24,616 bases of DNA from Nitrospirae bacterium CG2_30_53_67. GTDB taxonomy: Bacteria > CG2-30-53-67. The first letter of the stretch is position 1. Every line of letters starts with the position of its first letter. Location of the stretch: the NCBI GenBank assembly GCA_001873285.1, contig MNYV01000020.1:1-24616 (forward strand), in the 5' to 3' direction. Made by a program: the position numbers and the translations under genes. Below, piece after piece: positions 1 to 24,616 of this stretch. The notes beneath the pieces are model-generated. The model was given only the letters and a program-made list of their open reading frames with translations. It ran no database searches and was not told the origin of the DNA.

Positions 1-71
1 AAAAATGGGCGCTGTCCCTATTTATTCGTTATTTATTCGTCCAAAAATGGGCGCTGTCCCTATTTATTCGT
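1..71. repeat. Tandem pair of a 29-bp repeat
   Basis: An identical 29-bp unit occurs at 1-29 and 43-71, and its last 11 bases (TATTTATTCGT) are repeated once more at 30-40. The inner 16 bases, GGGCGCTGTCCCTATT, recur at 20603-20618 near the right-hand methyltransferase gene. The GGG-N6-CCC core is weakly palindromic. Similar dispersed palindromes in bacteria are often moved by REP-type transposases, but no transposase is visible here, so that link is inference. The window edge may cut a longer array. Confidence 0.8.
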
Positions 72-100
72 CCCGGGTAATATTGAACTCCCGGCAAGTG

Positions 101-2234: not shown

Positions 2235-3212
2235 CTACAATGAGTCAGCCGGACTGCGGACTCCCTTGCCGCCCCGGTTTAGAACGTGGGTGTAGATCAT
2301 TGTTGTCTTCACGTCCTTATGACCCAGAAGTTCCTGTACGGTACGGATATCATAGCCATCGGACAGCAAATGCGTGGCAAACGAATGCCGGAATGTGTGG
2401 CAGCTCGCACGCCTGATGAGACCGGCCTCACGGACAGCCTCGGCCACCGCCTTCTGAACAAGGGACTCGTGGACGTGATGTCGTCCCTGCTGGCCGGTCC
2501 GGGGATTCAACCACCGCTTCTCCTGCGGGAATACCCACTGCCAGCGCCACTCTGCAGCGGCATTCGGATATTTCCGATCGAGGGCATAAGGCATTTGGAC
2601 GCGGCCCCACCCTTCAGAGAGGTCCTTTTCATGGATGGTCTTGTTTTTCTCCAGGCGATCCTGAAGGGGTTGTTTCGTTGATGCAGGGAGCATGGTAACC
2701 CTGTCTTTCGCGCCCTTTCCGTCACGAACTGTGATCTCGTTCCGGGCGAAATCGATATCCTGAACCCGCAGCCGCAGGCATTCCATGAGCCGCAGCCCCG
2801 CGCCGTACATCAACGAGGCCATGAGCCACTTGTCACCTGTCAGGTGGGTGAGGACGGCCTTCACTTCATCGCGTGTCATGACCACGGGTACACGGTGAGG
2901 CCGACGCGCCCGGATGACCGCTCCCAGATCGCCGACTTCTTTGTTCAGGACGTGCCGGTAAAGAAACAACAGGGCACTGAGTGCCTGATTCTGCGTGGAT
3001 GCGCTGACTTTTTCCTTGACGGCAAGATGGGTCAGGAAGGCGTTGATCTCGGGTTCGGCCATCTCGGATGGATGGCGTTTGTTGTGAAAGTAAATGAACC
3101 GCCTGACCCACAGGCAGTAGGTCTGTTCGGTCCGGCGGCTGTAATGGCGCGAACGCAGGGCCTCGCGCATCTGGTCGAGGAGCCTGGACTTTTGGGGTTG
3201 TGGAGGCCGCAT
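2235..3212 (-). CDS. intI: Integron integrase (IntI), tyrosine recombinase
   Basis: This 325-aa tyrosine recombinase inserts and excises gene cassettes by attI x attC recombination. The catalytic set is complete: R141 ([16 protein letters not shown]), a lysine in GKGAKDR, H272 and R275 ([13 protein letters not shown]), H298 (LLGH) and nucleophile Y307 ([11 protein letters not shown]). The insert found only in integron integrases, absent from XerC/D, is present at about 205-232 ([20 protein letters not shown]). This separates IntI from phage integrases. The start at 3212 ([14 protein letters not shown]) matches the family N-terminus; the open frame continues to 3368 but the added residues look unrelated. 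The ribosome site is weak. The gene reads toward the cassette, an inverted arrangement known from a minority of integrons. Confidence 0.95.
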
Positions 3213-3464
3213 GGTATCAACTTTAAAGGTTATGGGGCAAGAGCTCGGCAGGCAATTAAGTTTAGGCATGGTTTGCACCCTGGTTTTAATGATTTGGCAG
3301 TATATCTTCAGGGAATTACGCCTGTCAAGAATAATTATAACCGGAAAGGGGATGATAAAGAAGTACACTATGCATGGATAGACCGACCGTGAACTGGATT
3401 GAGAAGCATCGAACCAAGAGGCATTTGATTGACAATAGGTATAGTTTAGGTATAATTATTATAT
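3213..3464. other. Intergenic region between intI and brnT
   Basis: This 252-bp divergent region should hold the intI promoter. I see no clear LexA box, attI-like core repeat or attC hairpin on this 5' side of intI, which supports placing attI on the 3' side. The brnT promoter is at its right end. Confidence 0.5.
3429..3456 (+). promoter_or_regulatory. Sigma70-type promoter of brnTA
   Basis: Perfect consensus boxes, TTGACA (3429-3434) and TATAAT (3451-3456), are separated by 16 bp. The expected start of transcription, about 7 nt after the -10 box, falls at 3462-3465, at or next to the brnT ATG at 3465. BrnA normally represses such a promoter. Confidence 0.8.
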
Positions 3465-9343: not shown

Positions 9344-9390
9344 TGATTTGGAAGGATAGGCATCCCCGGCCGGTGCAAACCATCATCCAA

Positions 9391-9480
9391 ACCGCTTCCC
9401 TACGCTGGCATTACCCAGATCAGGTTCAAGGGGTTGCCCGTGTTTTACAGGCTCTCAGTTGTTACAACTCCCCCAGGGTT
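9391..9480 (-). ncRNA. TPP riboswitch (thi box)
   Basis: On the minus strand the conserved elements appear in order: CTGGGGGAGTT, then CTGAGAG, then ACCCCTTGAACCTGATCTGG followed by GTAATGCCAGCGTAGGGAA. These are the pyrimidine- and pyrophosphate-sensing parts of the TPP aptamer. It lies 125-215 nt upstream of thiF and should turn off the whole thiFHSGEC operon when thiamine diphosphate is plentiful. A plausible promoter ends just before it. Confidence 0.97.
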
Positions 9481-9493
9481 TACTGGAGATTAG

Positions 9494-13092: not shown

Positions 13093-14217
13093 ATGACCCT
13101 GAGTTTACATCAACTGTTGAAAACCATGATAGAAAAAGGCGCATCGGATCTGCACGTCACCACGGGTTCCGCACCCCAGATACGGGTAGACGGAAAGCTG
13201 ATGCCCTTGAATCTCCCGCCCTTATCCTCGGCTGAGACCAAGCAGCTCTGCTACAGTGTGCTGACCGATGCGCAGAAACACCGTTTTGAAGAAGAGAGCG
13301 AACTGGATCTCTCCTTCGGGGTCAAGGGGCTCAGCCGGTTTCGGGCGAATTTTTTTATGCAGCGCGGGGCCATGGGCGGGGCCTTCCGGACCATACCCTA
13401 CAAGATTCTCACCTTCAGCGAGCTGGGGCTTCCGGCCGTTGCAGAGAAACTTTGTGAAAAACCCAGGGGATTGATTCTGGTGACGGGCCCCACGGGAAGC
13501 GGAAAATCAACCACCCTGGCCTCCATGATCGACAAGATCAACAGTGAACGGCATGAACATATCATTACGGTTGAGGATCCCATTGAATTTCTGCACCATC
13601 ACAAGAAGTGCGTGGTGAATCAGAGAGAGGTCAATGCGGATACCAAGTCTTTTAAAAACGCCTTGAAATACATCCTGCGTCAGGATCCCGACGTGGTTCT
13701 GATCGGGGAGATGCGGGATCTGGAGACGATCGAGGCCGCCCTGATCGTCTCCGAGACCGGCCATCTGGCCTTCGCCACGCTCCATACGAATTCCGCCGTC
13801 CAGACGATCAACAGGATTATCGATGTCTTCCCATCCCATCAGCAGTCGCAGGTCCGGGCCCAGCTTTCCTTTGTTCTTGAAGGAGTGCTTTCCCAGCAGT
13901 TGCTTGCCAAGGCCAGCGGAGAAGGACGCGTGCTGGCCATTGAGGTCATGATCCCGAACGCGGCCATCCGGAACCTGATTCGAGAGGACAAGGTCCATCA
14001 GATCTACTCGTCCATGCAGACCGGGCAGGAACAGTTCGGCATGCAGACCATGAACCAGGCGCTCTATGACTTGTATAAAAAACGGTTGATTACCTATGAG
14101 GATGCATTAGGGCGCTCCACGGTGCCTGAAGAGATGCTGGTGATGCTGCAGAGAGGCGGCGCCGTTGGAAATAATGACGATATGAGAAGCCGCCGTTCGT
14201 CAAAGGTGAAATACTAA
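13093..14217 (+). CDS. pilT: Type IV pilus retraction ATPase PilT
   Basis: This 374-aa hexameric ATPase drives pilus retraction and twitching. Diagnostic features are the N-terminal KGASDLHVTTGSAPQIRVDG, Walker A GPTGSGKST (about 131-139), ITVEDPIEF, LRQDPDVVLIGEMRD, TGHLAFATLHTNSA and the PilT-specific AIRNLIREDKVHQI motif needed for retraction. It lacks the zinc tetracysteine of PilB. The ATG has an AGGAGG site 5-6 nt upstream. It lies 107 bp after pilB and 37 bp before pilC. Confidence 0.97.
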   Translation: MTLSLHQLLKTMIEKGASDLHVTTGSAPQIRVDGKLMPLNLPPLSSAETKQLCYSVLTDAQKHRFEEESELDLSFGVKGLSRFRANFFMQRGAMGGAFRTIPYKILTFSELGLPAVAEKLCEKPRGLILVTGPTGSGKSTTLASMIDKINSERHEHIITVEDPIEFLHHHKKCVVNQREVNADTKSFKNALKYILRQDPDVVLIGEMRDLETIEAALIVSETGHLAFATLHTNSAVQTINRIIDVFPSHQQSQVRAQLSFVLEGVLSQQLLAKASGEGRVLAIEVMIPNAAIRNLIREDKVHQIYSSMQTGQEQFGMQTMNQALYDLYKKRLITYEDALGRSTVPEEMLVMLQRGGAVGNNDDMRSRRSSKVKY

Positions 14218-14254
14218 AAACAAACAGCAGTCAAATATTTCCTGGAGATGAATT

Positions 14255-15466
14255 ATGGAAGCTTTCAAGTATGCTGGGAAAACAAGCGCCGGGATCATCA
14301 AGAAGGGCGTCATACAGGCGGCCTCGAAAGACGAGGCCATGTCCATCCTGCGCCAGCAGGGGATTCGCGCCACTTCAGTGAAACCCAAACCCAAAGACAT
14401 TGAGATCAAAATCCCCGGACTGGGGAGGGGAGTCAAGGAAACGGAGATCGTGATCTTCACCCGGCAGTTTGCCACGATGATCGATGCGGGACTCCCTCTG
14501 GTTCAGTGCCTGGATATTCTTTCCTCCCAGACTGAGAACAAGACCTTTGCAAAGGCCATTGCCGCCGTTAAGCAGGACGTCGAAGGCGGATCCACCTATG
14601 CGGATGCCTTGCGCAAGCACCCGAATATTTTCAATGATCTTTATGTCAATATGGTGGAGGCCGGCGAAGTCGGCGGCATCCTGGATACGATTCTCAACCG
14701 TCTGGCCGGCTATATTGAGAAGGCCGTTAAACTGAAGAAGAAGGTGAAGGGGGCCATGGTCTATCCGGCCGTGGTGTTGAGCGTTGCTGTGATCGTGGTC
14801 GCCATCATCATGGTCTATGTGATCCCCGTATTTCAGAAGATGTTTGCGGGGTTCGGAAGCGCTCTTCCCGCTCCGACACGGCTGGTGATCGCGATGAGTG
14901 TTTTTGTAAAAGCAAACATTGTGTTTATGATCATGGCCATTGTTCTTTTCGTCATTGCCTTCTCCCAGGCCTACAAGAGGTCCCAACGCTTTAAGAAAGG
15001 GGTCCATATTGCTCTGCTTAGGTTCCCCTTGATCGGCACCCTGATCCGAAAAGTGGCCGTGGCCAAATTTACGAGAACGCTTGGGACGCTGATCAGCAGC
15101 GGTGTGCCGATCCTGGACGGGCTTGAGATCGTGGCCAAGACCGCCAACAACAAGGTTATCGAAGAAGCGGTCATGAAGACCCGAGAGAGTATCCGGGAAG
15201 GGAAAACCATTGCGGAACCCCTCTCCGAGACCAAGGTCTTTCCGCCTATGGTCGTTCAGATGATCGGCGTCGGAGAGCAGACCGGCGCTCTGGATGCCAT
15301 GTTATCCAAGATCGCCGACTTCTACGACGAAGAGGTGGACAATGCCGTGGCGACCCTGACCTCCATGCTTGAGCCGATCATGATGGTCTTCCTGGGCGGA
15401 ACCGTCGGGTTCCTGGTCGTGGCCATGTACCTGCCGGTCTTCAAAATGGCGGAAGTCGTCCATTAA
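14255..15466 (+). CDS. pilC: Type IV pilus inner-membrane platform protein PilC
   Basis: This 403-aa polytopic membrane protein couples the PilB/PilT motors to the pilus. Two GspF domains are visible: the first around TRQFATMIDAGLPLVQCLDIL (about residues 70-90), the second around FTRTLGTLISSGVPILDGLEI (about 270-290). Membrane segments lie at about 170-195 (VYPAVVLSVAVIVVAIIMVYVIP), 210-235 and at the C-terminus (MVFLGGTVGFLVVAMYLPVF). The conserved GEQTGALD precedes the last helix. CTGGAG gives the ribosome site. Confidence 0.96.
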   Translation: MEAFKYAGKTSAGIIKKGVIQAASKDEAMSILRQQGIRATSVKPKPKDIEIKIPGLGRGVKETEIVIFTRQFATMIDAGLPLVQCLDILSSQTENKTFAKAIAAVKQDVEGGSTYADALRKHPNIFNDLYVNMVEAGEVGGILDTILNRLAGYIEKAVKLKKKVKGAMVYPAVVLSVAVIVVAIIMVYVIPVFQKMFAGFGSALPAPTRLVIAMSVFVKANIVFMIMAIVLFVIAFSQAYKRSQRFKKGVHIALLRFPLIGTLIRKVAVAKFTRTLGTLISSGVPILDGLEIVAKTANNKVIEEAVMKTRESIREGKTIAEPLSETKVFPPMVVQMIGVGEQTGALDAMLSKIADFYDEEVDNAVATLTSMLEPIMMVFLGGTVGFLVVAMYLPVFKMAEVVH

Positions 15467-18798: not shown

Positions 18799-19143
18799 AT
18801 GCTGATACTCAAGATGATAGTCACGCTGATCATTTTTCTCGGTCTCCTTTTTTTTGCAAATCAGAACAGCACGGATGTTTCAATTTATTACGGCATGAAG
18901 GGCCCCATCCAGCTCCCCCTCTTTCTTGCGATCCTGATATCATTCCTGGCCGGAATGATCATCGCGTTATTCATCAGCTATATTGAGAAGTTTAAGCTCA
19001 AAGGACAAATTCGGGCTCTCAGGAGAGAGAAAAAGGCGATGGAAGGGGAACTGAACTCCCTTAGGAGAATGCCCATACTTGAATCCATGACCCAAAGACA
19101 TCCTGAAGAAATCCCGCCGGATGAGCCCAAGGGGATCGTATGA
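18799..19143 (+). CDS. lapA: LapA-type membrane protein (DUF1049)
   Basis: A 114-aa small inner-membrane protein. Two hydrophobic segments, about 4-22 and 38-62 (FLAILISFLAGMIIALFISYI), are separated by the family pattern ANQNSTDVSIYYG, and a charged coiled-coil tail follows (LKGQIRALRREKKAMEGELNSL). LapA and LapB work together in lipopolysaccharide assembly control in proteobacteria. The GGAGAAGG stretch just upstream is the ribosome site. Its end overlaps lapB by 4 bp (ATGA). Confidence 0.9.
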   Translation: MLILKMIVTLIIFLGLLFFANQNSTDVSIYYGMKGPIQLPLFLAILISFLAGMIIALFISYIEKFKLKGQIRALRREKKAMEGELNSLRRMPILESMTQRHPEEIPPDEPKGIV

Positions 19144-20297
19144 TCCATCCTCAGATCGAGACGATCCTTCTGATCGGGATAGGATTCCTTGCAGGGGCCG
19201 CCCTCGTCCGGATCCTTCCCAGGAAAGACCACGTCTCCAAGAATCAGCAAGAGGGCCGTACCGGCTTTTACAAAAGTCTGAACTATATCCTCTCCAATGA
19301 GCATGATAAAGCCATCGAGGAATTCACCCATATGGTGGAGCTGGATTCCGAAACCGTGGAGGTCTATCTTGCCCTGGGAAGTCTGTTCCGCTCCAAGGGC
19401 GAGGTCGGCCGGGCCATTCGGATTCACCAGAGCATCATCGTCCGCCCTTCACTGGACAAGAGGATCAAGGTCCAGGCATACTTTGATCTGGCCCTGGACT
19501 ACCAGAAGGCCGGTCTTTTCGACAACGCAATCGAAACATTCAGGGCCGTTATTCAGTTGGACCCCCATCATTTCCAGGCGCACCAGCGCCTGGAAAAGAT
19601 CTACGAAGAGGAGAAGAGCTGGGACAAGGCCTTCGAGATCCAGAAGAAGATCCAGAAACTGACCAACACCAAGGACACCATGGTGCTGGCGCATCTGGAA
19701 ACCGAAAAGGCCAAGCGCCTTCAGGAGCAAGGCCCGATAGACGATGCAATCCAGGGCTACAGGAGGGCGATACAGATCGACCGCAGATGTGTGGATGCCT
19801 ATCTGCATCTCGGCGACCTGTTCCATGATCAGGGAAAGTACCAGAAGGCGATCGGCATCTGGGAAGAGGTTTCAGAGCTCATCCCGGAATATGCCTTTCT
19901 GACCTACAAGAGGCTGGAGAATGCCTATTACGAACTCGGCCGGTACGAGGAGATGGGGGAGATCTATAAGAGAAATGTTACCAGGAATTCCAAGGATGTC
20001 CAGAGCCGGTTGGTCCTGGGAGACCACTACATCAGAAAAGGGGAGCTAAACGACGCCGCCCAGGAATACCAGGATGTCATCAGGATCAGTCCGAATTGCA
20101 TTGAGGCCCACCGGAGGATGGCGGAGATCCTGGTATCCCAGGGAAAGATGGATGAACTCAAACGTGAACTGGAGATGGTGATGACGATCTTTTCCACCAA
20201 ATACCTTTTTTACCATTGCAGCGGGTGCGGTTTTGAATCCAAGAATATCCTCTGGCACTGCCCCCAGTGCAAGAGCTGGGATACTTTTGTCCATTAA
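19140..20297 (+). CDS. lapB: LapB-type TPR protein with C-terminal rubredoxin-like zinc site
   Basis: This 385-aa protein has an N-terminal membrane anchor (about 7-25; ETILLIGIGFLAGAALVRIL), then a row of TPR units (for example NEHDKAIEEFTHMVELDSETVEVYLALG and DNAIETFRAVIQLDPHHFQAHQRL). It ends in a metal-binding knuckle with CSGCGFESKNILWHCPQC. This layout and length match LapB (YciM), which adjusts LPS synthesis through LpxC turnover by FtsH. The specific partner in this organism is inference. It is translationally coupled to lapA. Confidence 0.93.
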   Translation: MIHPQIETILLIGIGFLAGAALVRILPRKDHVSKNQQEGRTGFYKSLNYILSNEHDKAIEEFTHMVELDSETVEVYLALGSLFRSKGEVGRAIRIHQSIIVRPSLDKRIKVQAYFDLALDYQKAGLFDNAIETFRAVIQLDPHHFQAHQRLEKIYEEEKSWDKAFEIQKKIQKLTNTKDTMVLAHLETEKAKRLQEQGPIDDAIQGYRRAIQIDRRCVDAYLHLGDLFHDQGKYQKAIGIWEEVSELIPEYAFLTYKRLENAYYELGRYEEMGEIYKRNVTRNSKDVQSRLVLGDHYIRKGELNDAAQEYQDVIRISPNCIEAHRRMAEILVSQGKMDELKRELEMVMTIFSTKYLFYHCSGCGFESKNILWHCPQCKSWDTFVH

Positions 20298-20598
20298 AAC
20301 CGGAATTCGTTATTCGCCCGTGGCCGCCTTGTGGAGTTTGATCTCCACCATATCAAAGCTCCCTTTTCAATGATCCCTTTCTATCAGAATTAATGCTGAG
20401 GACCACGGGCATAAGTCGGCTTGGCCTGATCCTCCTCCTTTACGAGTCATCAACCGCCGGTATGGGAACCATGCATTAGAATGATCTTGACATGAATATC
20501 TATTGGGTGATAAATAACCCTTAACGGTAAAAATAGAAAAAGTGGAAGGCTTGTTTTCTGAAACTTACTTGCATCAGCAGAGGGAAGATTAAACATTA

Positions 20599-20618
20599 AA
20601 TAGGGCGCTGTCCCTATT
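20599..20618. repeat. Third copy of the GGGCGCTGTCCCTATT repeat
   Basis: AATAGGG-N6-CCCTATT is a perfect 7+7 inverted repeat. Positions 20603-20618 are identical to the core of the tandem repeat at 1-71, more than 20 kb away. Confidence 0.8.
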
Positions 20619-20654: not shown

Positions 20655-20684
20655 TTTACTACCTCCCGTTCTTTTTGGTATGAT
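20655..20684 (+). promoter_or_regulatory. Possible promoter of the C5 methyltransferase operon
   Basis: TTTACT (20655-20660) and TATGAT (20679-20684) are 18 bp apart, 25 bp before the methyltransferase ATG. The -35 box is weak. Confidence 0.35.
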
Positions 20685-20709: not shown

Positions 20710-22005
20710 ATGACGAAAAATAGAAAATACGATAAAACCAAAAAGGACATCCCTCTCGTTGCGGAAGAAGAAGCCGTTTATCTGGCACGAGTAGACGGAA
20801 CATTACAGGATGTAAAATTAAAACCCAAGCTGATTGATCTATTCGCCGGTGCCGGCGGTATGACGCTCGGATTCACGAAGTTGACCGGTCATGGTTTTGA
20901 GCCGGTTTGGGCGAACGATTTTAACGATCATGCAGCAAGGACGTACAATGCCAATTTCGGCAACCATTGTATCGTCGGCGACATTGTAAGCATTCTCGAA
21001 AACCCACGTACTAAAATTCCGAAAGCCGACGTAGTCATCGGCGGCCCACCCTGTCAAGGTTTCAGCCTTCTCAATAAGAACCGAGACGACGACCCGCGCA
21101 AGCAACTATGGCGACCGTACATGGATATTGTAGAACGCTCCGGCGCCTCCATTTTCGTCATGGAAAATGTCCCCCAAATGCTTGATTCTTTCGAGCATGG
21201 TGAAATCATCGGAGTTGCCGAATCGCTGGGTTTCAAACTTCGCTGGGCTAAGTTATGTGCAGCGGATTACGGCGTATCGCAAACAAGATGGCGTGCTTTC
21301 ATAATAGGCTGTAAATTCGCAGACCCTGAAGGTGTTTTCCCTCCGAAAAAAACAAACTACAATATCAACAACGGTTATCGCAAAGCGTTTTCTGAAGAGT
21401 TCGACTCATATATTGTGAATCCTTCGCCGTGGAGAAACGTTCGCGATGCCATCGCCGATCTGCCGCCGCCGGTCGGAACGGAAATTCGGGACATCCCGCC
21501 CCCGCTTGACCTTCACTTCGGACGTACGCCTACGCCGATGAGTATGAAACGTTATCGCGCTATACCGAAAGAGGGGATGAATCGATTCGACCTTCAAAAG
21601 AAAGCGCCGGATATTACTCCTGCATGTTGGATTCGCAAAACATCCGGCGGTACTGATCTATTCGGAAGGCTCTGGTGGGATAGGCCGTCTTTTACTATAA
21701 GAACGGAGTTTTTCAAACCGGAGAAAGGGCGCTATCTTCATCCCGTGCAGCATCGGCCTATAACCCACCGAGAGGCTGCGAGACTGCAATCATTCCCCGA
21801 TGATTTCAGATTCGTCGGGACAAAGATAGAAGTAGCGAAACAAATAGGCAACGCAGTCCCGCCATTGTTGGCCGCGCGCATCGCCGATTGTGTATACACG
21901 TTGCTTCTGTCCAAGGAAATAAATCGATGTCGGACGTCTTCAGCAGGAAAAAAAGAAGCTGGATTATGGCGCGAGTTTCAGGTAGCAACACAAAGCCTGA
22001 AATAA
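20710..22005 (+). CDS. dcm-like: C5-cytosine DNA methyltransferase
   Basis: This 431-aa enzyme methylates cytosine at carbon 5. All main motifs are present in order: I (LIDLFAGAGGMTLGF, 41-55), IV with nucleophile C115 (GGPPCQGFS), VI (MENVPQ, ENV 152-154), VIII (QTRWRAF, 191-197), a variable target-recognition region (about 200-330), IX (ITHREAARLQSFPDDF) and X (QIGNAVPP). The recognition sequence cannot be read from the protein. The start lacks a clear ribosome site. Its last 79 bp overlap the vsr gene in another frame. With the Vsr and HNH genes it forms a type II restriction-modification operon. Confidence 0.95.
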   Translation: MTKNRKYDKTKKDIPLVAEEEAVYLARVDGTLQDVKLKPKLIDLFAGAGGMTLGFTKLTGHGFEPVWANDFNDHAARTYNANFGNHCIVGDIVSILENPRTKIPKADVVIGGPPCQGFSLLNKNRDDDPRKQLWRPYMDIVERSGASIFVMENVPQMLDSFEHGEIIGVAESLGFKLRWAKLCAADYGVSQTRWRAFIIGCKFADPEGVFPPKKTNYNINNGYRKAFSEEFDSYIVNPSPWRNVRDAIADLPPPVGTEIRDIPPPLDLHFGRTPTPMSMKRYRAIPKEGMNRFDLQKKAPDITPACWIRKTSGGTDLFGRLWWDRPSFTIRTEFFKPEKGRYLHPVQHRPITHREAARLQSFPDDFRFVGTKIEVAKQIGNAVPPLLAARIADCVYTLLLSKEINRCRTSSAGKKEAGLWREFQVATQSLK

Positions 22006-22334
22006 TCGTCCGAAGAATACTTTACGGCTTGGGTTTTCGTTATCGTATAAATGTCCGAAAGTTGCCAGGCACTCCCGATATTGTATTATCGAAGCATAAT
22101 AAAGTGGTCTTCGTTCATGGCTGTTTCTGGCATGGCCATAAAGGCTGTAAACGTTCCAAGAGGCCAACTACGAATGTCGCTTTTTGGAACAGGAAAATAG
22201 ACAAGAACATCGAGAGAGACAAAAACGGTTTAAAAGAACTTCGGCGGCTCGGTTGGAAGCCGCTGGTGATTTGGGAATGCCAGACAAAGAAACTCGAATC
22301 ACTGGAAAAAAGGCTCGTTCGCTTTTTCAAATAG
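21927..22334 (+). CDS. vsr: Very short patch repair endonuclease Vsr
   Basis: This 135-aa mismatch endonuclease nicks at T:G mismatches created when 5-methylcytosine deaminates, protecting the sites of the partner methyltransferase from mutation. Signatures are the N-terminal VFSRKKRSWIMARVSGSNTKPE, LPGTPDIVL (D51), VVFVHGCFWHGHKGC (H64, H69 and the C66/H71/C74 zinc-binding region), NRKIDKNIERDK and LGWKPLVIWEC. The ATG at 21927 follows AAGGAAAT at good spacing and yields the canonical Vsr N-terminus. It overlaps the methyltransferase gene by 79 bp, suggesting coupled translation. Confidence 0.96.
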   Translation: MSDVFSRKKRSWIMARVSGSNTKPEIIVRRILYGLGFRYRINVRKLPGTPDIVLSKHNKVVFVHGCFWHGHKGCKRSKRPTTNVAFWNRKIDKNIERDKNGLKELRRLGWKPLVIWECQTKKLESLEKRLVRFFK

Positions 22335-22344
22335 GGGGTGCTTA

Positions 22345-22893
22345 ATGGGATCGAAAGACAAACTGCGGGCATATCTTGAAGCGAACGTAGGCAAAGTTCT
22401 TAAGACGGCTACACTTCGCAAGGTCGCAGGCGTAAGCGAGTACGCACGAAGACTTCGAGAATTACGCGATCAAGAAGGCATGCAGATTCGCTCCCATATC
22501 GACAGGCACGACCTCAAACCCGGCGAATACGTGCTTGAAAGTCTAAAGAGAATTCCGATGCTGGGACGCGGCATATCACCCCAGCTACGTAATGAAATTC
22601 TTGAGCGCAACGGTTTCACCTGCCGACTATGCGGTGCCGGATCTACCGACCCCGATCCATTCAATCCTTCTCGAAAAATCCGGCTTCATATCGACCATAT
22701 CATTCCACTGAGCCAAGACGGCACAAACGATAAGAACAATCTGCGAGTGCTCTGTTCCGCGTGCAATCAAGGCCGATCAAATATTCAGCCGCTTACCGAA
22801 TCTGCTCGAAATGTTTTGGCCCGTATCCGTCGCCTTCCTCGTGCATCTCAAAAAGAAGTTTATGAAGCGTTGAAGAAGGCATTTGCAGAATAA
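22345..22893 (+). CDS. HNH endonuclease, probable restriction enzyme of the C5 methyltransferase system
   Basis: This 182-aa protein has an N-terminal helical, winged-helix-like part (about 1-65; LRAYLEANVGKVLKTATLRKVAGVSEYARRLRELR) and a C-terminal HNH nuclease. Zinc pairs are C93/C96 (FTCRLCGAG) and C137/C140 (VLCSACNQGRSN), and the catalytic block is LHIDHIIPLSQDGTNDKNNLRVL (H115, D117, H118, N131/N132). The order methyltransferase, Vsr, HNH points to the restriction partner, though specificity is unknown. GGGGGTG is the ribosome site, 10 bp after vsr. attC2 begins 44 bp after the stop. Confidence 0.9.
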   Translation: MGSKDKLRAYLEANVGKVLKTATLRKVAGVSEYARRLRELRDQEGMQIRSHIDRHDLKPGEYVLESLKRIPMLGRGISPQLRNEILERNGFTCRLCGAGSTDPDPFNPSRKIRLHIDHIIPLSQDGTNDKNNLRVLCSACNQGRSNIQPLTESARNVLARIRRLPRASQKEVYEALKKAFAE

Positions 22894-22936
22894 AGTTCGG
22901 CCTGATATATCCTTGTCTTTACAATACGCGATGAAC

Positions 22937-22996
22937 GTCCAACAAGCGGCTCGACACCGTCCGGGCTTCGCCCGGCGGGTCAGCCGCGCGTTATAT
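22937..22996 (+). other. attC: attC-like site (attC2) behind the C5 methyltransferase-Vsr-HNH operon
   Basis: This 60-bp imperfect palindrome starts with GTCCAAC (a perfect RYYYAAC R'' box) and ends with GTTATAT (R' box). The arms pair through GCGGCT-C-GAC against GCGGCTGAC, leaving one extra base in the 5' arm as in known attC sites, and then through CCGGGC around a TTC loop. The extra base sets the orientation as plus, so the genes to the left lie in cassette order before it. The R' core GTTATAT equals the core at the attI/cassette junction at 2118-2124. A plain terminator hairpin is an alternative, but the box pattern and lack of a T-run favour attC. Confidence 0.7.
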
Positions 22997-23054: not shown

Positions 23055-24616
23055 ATGCCACGACTGACCGAACAAGAACAACAAGAGATCATCCGTTTTC
23101 TGGAGGCGGGCAAACCGCTGCCGGACAAATTTCGTTTCCTGCTCTTTGAGGACAAGCGCGAGGTCGAATTGGTCTGGAACGGCAAGACCAGCGAGGTCTC
23201 CAATATCGTGCTGCCCTTTCAGGTGATCGAGCAGGTGGACGAGCCGCGCGCCGAAAGGCCAGAGGACACGTCACCACAAGGATTGCTTTTTGACGAGCGC
23301 GGCCGCCAACTCAAGGGCTGGACAAACAAGCTCATCTGGGGTGACAACAAGTTGATCCTCTCATCGCTGAAGAACGGCCCCCTGCGCGAGGAGATTGAAA
23401 AGCAGGGCGGCCTTAAGCTGATCTACATCGACCCGCCCTTCGACGTCGGCGCGGATTTCAGCATGGACATCGAGATCGGCGGCGACACCTTCACGAAAAA
23501 CCCCAACATCCTGGAAGAGATTGCTTACCGCGACACCTGGGGCAAAGGCACGGATTCCTTTATCGCCATGATCTACGAGCGGCTGGTGGTGATGCACGAT
23601 TTGTTGGCCGAAGACGGCAGTATTTATGTCCATTGTGATGTGAGAGTTGGAAGTTTTCTAAAACTCGTGCTAGATGAAATTTTTGGTGAAATTGGTTTCA
23701 ATAGCATGGTCATCTGGAAGAGAAGATCAGGCATAGTACAAAAGACAAATCAGTTTGGAATTACGACTGATTTTTTATTCTATTACAACAAAACTGATGA
23801 GTTCACGTTTTCCCCCCAGTTTACAACAGAAGACACAGAGGACTATATCAAGGAAAGATATACTTATAAGGAACCAGGTGGAAGAGTTTACAAGCTTGGT
23901 GATTTAAGCAATCCCGCGAACAGACCTACCCTGAAATATGAATATAAAGGATATGCTCCTCCAGAAAAAGGATGGGCTGTTTCCCGAGAACGAATGGAGC
24001 AAATGGATAAGGAGGGAAGATTATATTTTCCGAAAGACAAAGCTAAAAGATTAATGCGAAAACAATTCCTGGATGAATGGAAAGGTAAACCTGTTCAAAA
24101 CCTATGGGATGATGTTTTTCCTGTTAACTCGCAGGCAAAAGAAAAAGTTGACTACCCCACGCAAAAACCCGAAGCCCTTCTTGAACGCATCATCAAAGCC
24201 TCTTCCAACGAAGGCGACCTGGTTGCCGACTTCTTCTGCGGCTCCGGTACCACCGCCGCCGTGGCGGAAAAGCTGGGGCGCAAGTGGATCGTCAGCGATC
24301 TGGGCAAGTTCGCCATTCACACTACCCGTAAGCGTCTGATCGGCGTGCAGCGGGAACTCAAAGCCGAGGGCAAGGACTACCGCGCCTTTGAAATCCTCAA
24401 CCTGGGCAAGTACGAACGCCAGCACTACATCGGAATAGAACCGCTAATAGACGCGAATGCACGCGAATCAAAAGAAGATATTGGCGTTCATTCGCGTTCA
24501 TTGGCGGTTGAAGATGTTTCCCGCCGGGAAATGCAGCGCCGGATCATCGAACAAAAAGAAAAGGAATTTGTGGAACTGATCCTTCGCGCCTACCGCGCCG
24601 AGAAGACCGACGGCTT
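23055..24616 (+). CDS. mod: Adenine-specific DNA methyltransferase, type III Mod-like (5' part, runs off window)
   Basis: At least 520 residues are open to the window end with no stop. It is a beta-class N6-adenine methyltransferase: the catalytic DPPF (126-129; KLIYIDPPFDVGADF) comes before the AdoMet-binding motif (D392 onward; DFFCGSGTTAAVAEKLGRKW), with the target-recognition region between. EDGSIYVHCD and DYPTQKPEALLERII are further family blocks. The AGAGGA site 6 nt before ATG 23055 supports the start. About 23634-24150, the target-recognition part, is much more AT-rich than either flank. A palindromic repeat is inserted in frame at 24442-24506. A res helicase-nuclease gene would be expected beyond the window; that is inference. 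Confidence 0.93.
   Translation, partial: MPRLTEQEQQEIIRFLEAGKPLPDKFRFLLFEDKREVELVWNGKTSEVSNIVLPFQVIEQVDEPRAERPEDTSPQGLLFDERGRQLKGWTNKLIWGDNKLILSSLKNGPLREEIEKQGGLKLIYIDPPFDVGADFSMDIEIGGDTFTKNPNILEEIAYRDTWGKGTDSFIAMIYERLVVMHDLLAEDGSIYVHCDVRVGSFLKLVLDEIFGEIGFNSMVIWKRRSGIVQKTNQFGITTDFLFYYNKTDEFTFSPQFTTEDTEDYIKERYTYKEPGGRVYKLGDLSNPANRPTLKYEYKGYAPPEKGWAVSRERMEQMDKEGRLYFPKDKAKRLMRKQFLDEWKGKPVQNLWDDVFPVNSQAKEKVDYPTQKPEALLERIIKASSNEGDLVADFFCGSGTTAAVAEKLGRKWIVSDLGKFAIHTTRKRLIGVQRELKAEGKDYRAFEILNLGKYERQHYIGIEPLIDANARESKEDIGVHSRSLAVEDVSRREMQRRIIEQKEKEFVELILRAYRAEKTDG
24442..24506. repeat. Palindromic repeat inserted in frame in the mod gene
   Basis: Two arms of 27 bp (24442-24468 and 24480-24506), made of CGCGAAT/ATTCGCG-type units, pair at most positions around an 11-bp centre. 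The segment keeps the reading frame and adds about 22 residues (LIDANARESKEDIGVHSRSLAV) between conserved parts. Repeats of this CGCGAAT type occur between genes in other bacteria, to my memory; copy number here cannot be judged from one window. Confidence 0.75.

Follow-up and report, generated by a model that had tools for sequence, protein, structure and literature searches.

A Dcm–Vsr–HNH restriction–modification operon that ends in an attC site, a probable relic of an integron cassette

A three-gene restriction–modification (R-M) operon of Nitrospirae bacterium CG2_30_53_67, dcm-vsr-hnh, is very probably a real relic of an integron cassette. Judged by its sequence, it ends in an attC site, attC2, appears to have lost its left end, and sits without an intI gene in an R-M island of ~8 kb between the core genes lapB and sat. 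The window analyzed here, 24,616 bp in length, is the entire contig C20 of a 2.36-Mb draft genome that is 95% complete and comprises 183 contigs. As an earlier note on this DNA had proposed, the operon is not within the array of the resident integron, from which it is 20 kb away: the array occupies positions 1–2068, and the operon belongs to the lapB-sat island.

All three genes of the operon are on the + strand. The first (20710–22005) encodes a C5-cytosine methyltransferase of the Dcm family (PF00145, 3e-57; TIGR00675). The second (21888–22334) encodes a Vsr mismatch endonuclease (PF03852; TIGR00632, 131.7 bits) and overlaps the end of dcm; translation might instead start at a later ATG, near 21927. 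The third (22345–22893) encodes an HNH endonuclease (PF01844; weak PADLOC match to REase_II) presumed to be the restriction enzyme of the system. A candidate operon promoter at 20655–20684 (+), TTTACT-18-TATGAT with an extended −10, was identified by its match to the consensus. T:G mismatches, the substrate of Vsr, arise from deaminated 5-methylcytosine. The operon thus has the gene content of a Type II R-M system with Vsr, namely a C5 methyltransferase, an endonuclease and Vsr, and most likely works as an ordinary one in which Dcm would protect the DNA, HNH cut it and Vsr mend T:G mismatches. A search with the HNH protein, taking one genome per species, yielded 12 loci. The Dcm-Vsr-HNH arrangement is preserved in nine of 11 homologous loci, Vsr not being found in L045 and L046. 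Most homologous loci also keep a dcm/vsr overlap similar to the ~80–118 bp seen here (21888–22005).

The 60-bp palindrome that the earlier note described 44 bp after the operon, in cassette orientation, was recovered at that distance and recognized by a structure model. In this site (attC2; 22937–22996, +), R'' (22937–22943) reads GTCCAAC and R' (22990–22996) reads GTTATAT, with the crossover after G22990. Compared with the consensus boxes RYYYAAC and GTTRRRY, the former is a full match and the latter has one mismatch. The palindrome is imperfect, its L'' arm carrying two bulged, extrahelical bases, C and A. Its fold z-score of −3.4 indicates that it is not a product of chance. In a heuristic scan, attC2 scored 22.2, and six shuffled 24.6-kb strands gave one match of at least 17, at 18.0. 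The three top-scoring sites of the window were attC2, attC1 of the resident integron, and a repeat inside the neighboring mod gene (24435–24513). A strict attC pattern matched attC2 and nothing else in the 2.36-Mb genome.

For the covariance-model scan suggested in the earlier note, we built a model, R2, from six attC sites: attC1, one site on contig C146, one from the array of a Nitrospira (L038), and three from loci adjoining intI genes in other genomes (L097, L101 and L112). attC2 was excluded from training. Covariation among the six sites is strong and real: 10 pairs have changed on both sides, and 94% of cells are paired, versus 75% in shuffles. R2 was used instead of an earlier model derived from two near-identical sites, which was dropped as too narrow, and superseded a 10-site MAFFT alignment that proved to be misaligned. 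According to R2, attC2 scored 21.9 bits, with an E-value of 8e-4 over 146 kb, and was detected on the + (cassette) strand only. This match is moderate, not strong, and the prefilter of a whole-genome attC scan missed the site. Together, the boxes, the imperfect palindrome with its extrahelical bases and the recognition by a structure model confirm, at the level of sequence, that 22937–22996 (+) is a genuine attC site.

Comparison with a second genome located the end of the mobile unit. At locus L047, whose contig begins inside the HNH gene, the last 27 HNH residues are 93% identical to those of the window, and the DNA of the two is alignable through the HNH end, the spacer and the attC up to G|TTA. 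Past GTTA, the two are unrelated (local score p 0.40), L047 having a RidA gene in place of mod. The two loci thus present a gene and an attC in cassette orientation, with a junction that breaks at G|TT. IntI recombination at G|TT predicts such a break, and a terminator would not give it. We accordingly regard it as very unlikely that the hairpin downstream of the operon is a terminator or some other ordinary palindrome. It is GC-rich, stands 44 bp past a stop codon and is followed by TTATATTTT, as a terminator might be. However, it was not called as a terminator, it alone in the genome matches the strict attC pattern, and the similarity to L047 breaks at the crossover base. Moreover, the conserved terminator that the earlier note had named as the observation that would undo its proposal was not encountered: other homologous operons carry unrelated attCs or none, so the hairpin is not a conserved terminator.

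The attC of a cassette has its other half in the left end of the same cassette, so that this end is expected to be complementary to R''. In complete cassettes, this complementarity was found to extend over 7–13 bp: 13 bp in the sister genome G001, 12 bp in cassette 1 of the window, 10 bp in the third cassette of L038, 9 bp on contig C40, 8 bp in L039 and L040, and 7 bp on C146. From attC2, the predicted left end is GTTGGACGTTCATC. A search of the window for its start, GTTGGACG, turned up the complement of attC2 and no other copy, which bears out the earlier note's failure to find a matching left end upstream. In the 2.8 kb upstream, the best match was 6 bp and lay inside genes. Such an absence alone is not rare, because the attC-ended gene of C23, the second cassette of G001 and two genes of L038 also lack a left end that matches R''. 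Nevertheless, because the predicted GTTGGACG is absent, whereas complete cassettes have such a complement of R'' at their start, we consider the left end to be lost and not merely unseen, and for this reason we call the operon a cassette relic rather than a cassette. Three candidate left ends were rejected: GTTATTC at 20308 is the native sat stop region, common to sister genomes, and GTTTTCT at 20553 and GTTCTTT at 20669 have GTT alone in common with the prediction.

Where the left end might have been, the DNA contains two repeats. A promoter-like repeat, CTTGACAT...GATAAATAAC.CTTAACGG (20462–20551, +), also stands ahead of the C23 gene that ends in an attC and ahead of a G001 antitoxin-like gene. 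A REP-like palindrome, AATAGGGCGCTGTCCCTATT (20599–20618), is a genome-wide repeat, present also at the start of the contig. REP-like palindromes GGGCGCTGTCCCTATT are found both at window positions 1–75, beside attC1, and at 20599–20618, upstream of dcm, with copies on several contigs. The C23 gene (L146, positions 779–1341, same genome) is small, ends in an attC (33.5 bits) and is without a left end; a sequence similar to the REP-like element accompanies the promoter-like repeat upstream of it.

The resident integron comprises an IntI integrase gene (2235–3368, −; TIGR02249, 485 bits), whose product is 81% identical to an IntI encoded at the same locus in G001, and cassette 1 (107–2068, −), which encodes an EcoRV-family endonuclease (PF09233) and a Dam-type methyltransferase (TIGR00571). 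The left end of cassette 1, GTTATGTGTATT, pairs over the above 12 bp with its R''. Its site, attC1 (101–160, −), was recognized by the heuristic and by R2, in whose training set it stands. The integron is of the inverted type, with intI and cassettes on the same strand and the array downstream of intI. The integron of G001, a sister species in the same genus, has other cassettes and two attC sites. The resident system (intI 2235–3368, array 1–2068), which G001 has at the same locus, is a sedentary chromosomal integron; the Dcm-Vsr-HNH operon is not part of it. The earlier note had equated the R' core GTTATAT of attC2 with the sequence at the attI junction. The motif does occur near intI, with its G at 2124 and at 2217 on the minus strand, and is conserved in the sister species (GGTGTGTTATAT), but it is not at the crossover. 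The attI/cassette crossover is ATAG|TTATGTGTATT, with its G at 2069 and cassette 1 beginning at 2068; in the window and in G001 alike it lies ~55–60 bp further on. Because the crossover is ~55 bp past GTTATAT, the 7-mer in common provides no evidence about attI.

R2 also recognized attC sites on contigs that have no complete intI. Those of this genome comprise two on C40, one on C23, a weak one on C125 and one on C146, which carries an intI fragment. In G001, they are on C84, C68 and C97, and those of C68 and C97 keep matching left ends. Because the draft contigs are short, some of these strays may be broken arrays. On C146 (L151, positions 13752–14633), a second integron remnant retains 27 C-terminal IntI residues, behind which lie cassettes with a strong attC of 57.8 bits, the C146 site on which R2 was trained. 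A clean empty site was sought for the isolated attC of G001 C97, and the comparison found no downstream synteny.

The island that contains the operon has recognizable edges. lapB occupies 19140–20297, and foreign DNA begins at ~20356. Between them, at 20297–20355, the native lapB end is joined by a minus-strand copy of the final ~45 nt of sat, and the blastn alignment to G001 ends at 20355. The other edge is on contig C120, where the 3' end of res (1–403) is followed by the lapB-sat spacer and a complete sat, with a second copy of the sat 3' end at 563–633 (87% over 71 bp) ahead of the latter. The sat 3'-end copies at the two edges, ~64–71 bp, form an imperfect direct repeat of the kind left by elements that enter at the 3' ends of genes; the left repeat is without 40 bp that are present in the right one. 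In G001, lapB is directly followed by an intact sat on the opposite strand, and in four further genomes of the family (G002–G005) sat is downstream of lapB with no island. The empty site in relatives that the earlier note called for thus exists for the island, in G001–G005, not for the cassette alone; for the latter, we define the true empty site as lapB-...-TTATATTTTCC-mod without the operon.

The second R-M system of the island adjoins the first. A Type III-like mod methyltransferase gene (23055–24616, +; PADLOC MTase_III, 326 bits), cut by the contig end, starts 58 bp after attC2, as the earlier note had observed. Adjacent mod and res genes on a single plasmid show 61% identity to this mod and 80% identity to the C120 res end, respectively, which argues that C20 and C120 belong to one island. 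mod and res together make this neighbor a Type III R-M system. The gap between the contigs, estimated from the plasmid mod-res at ~3 kb, would hold only the rest of mod-res, unless it is larger. C78 was tried as the missing middle and rejected, since it carries a different helicase gene. No attC was found behind res (R2 on C120 1–525), and no integrase was seen in the sequenced part of the island. The suggestion in the earlier note of a cassette cluster specialized in R-M systems, with further attCs to the right, was therefore not borne out: one attC is present, and since none was detected for the Type III system, the operon is best described as a single cassette.

How the operon reached the island can be outlined in conditional terms. 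In an array, it would have moved as a circle through the action of IntI on the folded bottom strand of its attC. The cassette would then have been carried or inserted into the lapB-sat island, and its left end replaced by the upstream DNA that bears the promoter-like repeat and the REP-like palindrome. The operon is now probably expressed from a local promoter and would no longer be precisely excisable. With the left junction of the cassette itself lost, two routes have to be weighed. We see about an even chance that recombination at the sat 3' end, either homologous or site-specific, brought in the whole island together with a fragment of a donor array, attC2 being passive. The sat copies at both flanks, the presence in the island of two unrelated R-M systems of which one has an attC, and the close relative of attC2 in another genome all fit this route; the lack of a visible integrase and the 40-bp deficit of the left repeat count against it. 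Direct out-of-array insertion is possible but doubtful. Here, IntI of this cell or an ancestor would have placed a circular cassette at an attG-like G|TTATAT upstream of a pre-existing mod, and the left junction would have been rewritten later. An intact integron with an R-M cassette is on the same contig, other attCs lie on intI-less contigs of this genome and its sister, with matching left ends on G001 C68 and C97, and attG insertion is described as an activity of IntI (PMC12901181). However, no left junction G|TT with attC2-derived sequence was found, attC2 is closer to the attC of L047 than to those of the local integron, and no clean insertion was recognizable at the C97 site of G001. A broader idea, that IntI scatters cassettes around the chromosome in this genus and that the promoter repeat and REP-like element, by replacing left ends, fix strays as permanent genes, with the window operon and the C23 gene as examples, is speculative and seems to us unlikely.

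Homologues bear on when the attC was acquired. Loci L040 and L039 contain Dcm-Vsr-HNH cassettes with left ends GTTCGCTG and GTTGGCTG, respectively, complementary to their own R'' as noted above; by the left-end test, these are complete, two-ended cassettes. In the Nitrospira locus L038, a C-terminal remnant of intI is followed by Dcm-Vsr-HNH, whose attC (E 1.5e-5) precedes further attC cassettes. In L044, L036 and L037, which are closest to the window in their Dcm and HNH sequences, no attC was found, so that the operon can do without one. Homologues of HNH and Dcm on plasmids and in viruses are distant, and those of their loci that were examined had no attC match. On the 14-kb plasmid pGT2 of Acidithiobacillus ferriphilus (L156), a related HNH gene and a C5 methyltransferase gene adjoin a tyrosine recombinase gene. 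On the trees, whose support is weak, loci with the operon as a cassette and loci without are intermingled, with ~3 changes of label, and the attC type of the window and L047 is unlike that of L039 and L040. These two observations suggest that the operon probably became a cassette, or swapped its attC, more than once, and that at least two lineages carried it as a cassette, with attC sites unrelated to each other. The same intermingling, the two unrelated attC types serving one kind of operon and the absent left end could also mean that attC2 was joined onto a resident operon, which would be a cassette in the making rather than a decayed one. We consider this quite improbable: in L047 this HNH-spacer-attC unit stands in different genomic surroundings, which argues that attC2 was attached before the unit came to the window locus. 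A decayed cassette thus remains the preferred reading.

The kinds of locus that this case resembles have all been described before, and the case is instructive rather than unprecedented. Clusters of attC sites lacking integron integrases (CALINs) and single-attC loci likewise place attC-ended cargo away from intI. A CALIN comprises at least two attCs without a nearby intI, and the island contains one. IntegronFinder 2.0 by default asks for two attCs, and its authors note that single sites can be true (PMC9024848). Insertion of cassettes into genomes at attG sites, reported by Loot et al. (2024, Nat Microbiol) as cited in PMC11023631 and PMC12901181, likewise yields out-of-array cassettes in intI-bearing genomes; to be recognized, it needs both junctions and an empty site, and in the window the left junction is lost. 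R-M and methyltransferase cassettes occur in integrons and phage CALINs (PMC9892861). The window operon resembles these in its DNA-methyltransferase cargo and differs in being a three-gene Dcm-Vsr-HNH unit that occurs across phyla with two attC types unrelated to each other. Out-of-array cassettes have recently become known from experiments, and natural cases that can be set against sister genomes help in learning how defence genes leave integrons and settle. Comparing a left end with its own R'' offers a simple sequence test that separates complete from truncated cassettes.

Two further features of the window were recorded. An Rfam scan at gathering thresholds gave a TPP riboswitch as the sole match, at 9380–9484 (−), beside thiamine biosynthesis genes. 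Within mod, the palindromic repeat GACGCGAATGCACGCGAAT...ATTCGCGTTCATTGGCG (24435–24513) is in frame and adds ~24 residues that the plasmid homologue does not have, which likens it to the palindromic elements inside Rickettsia genes.
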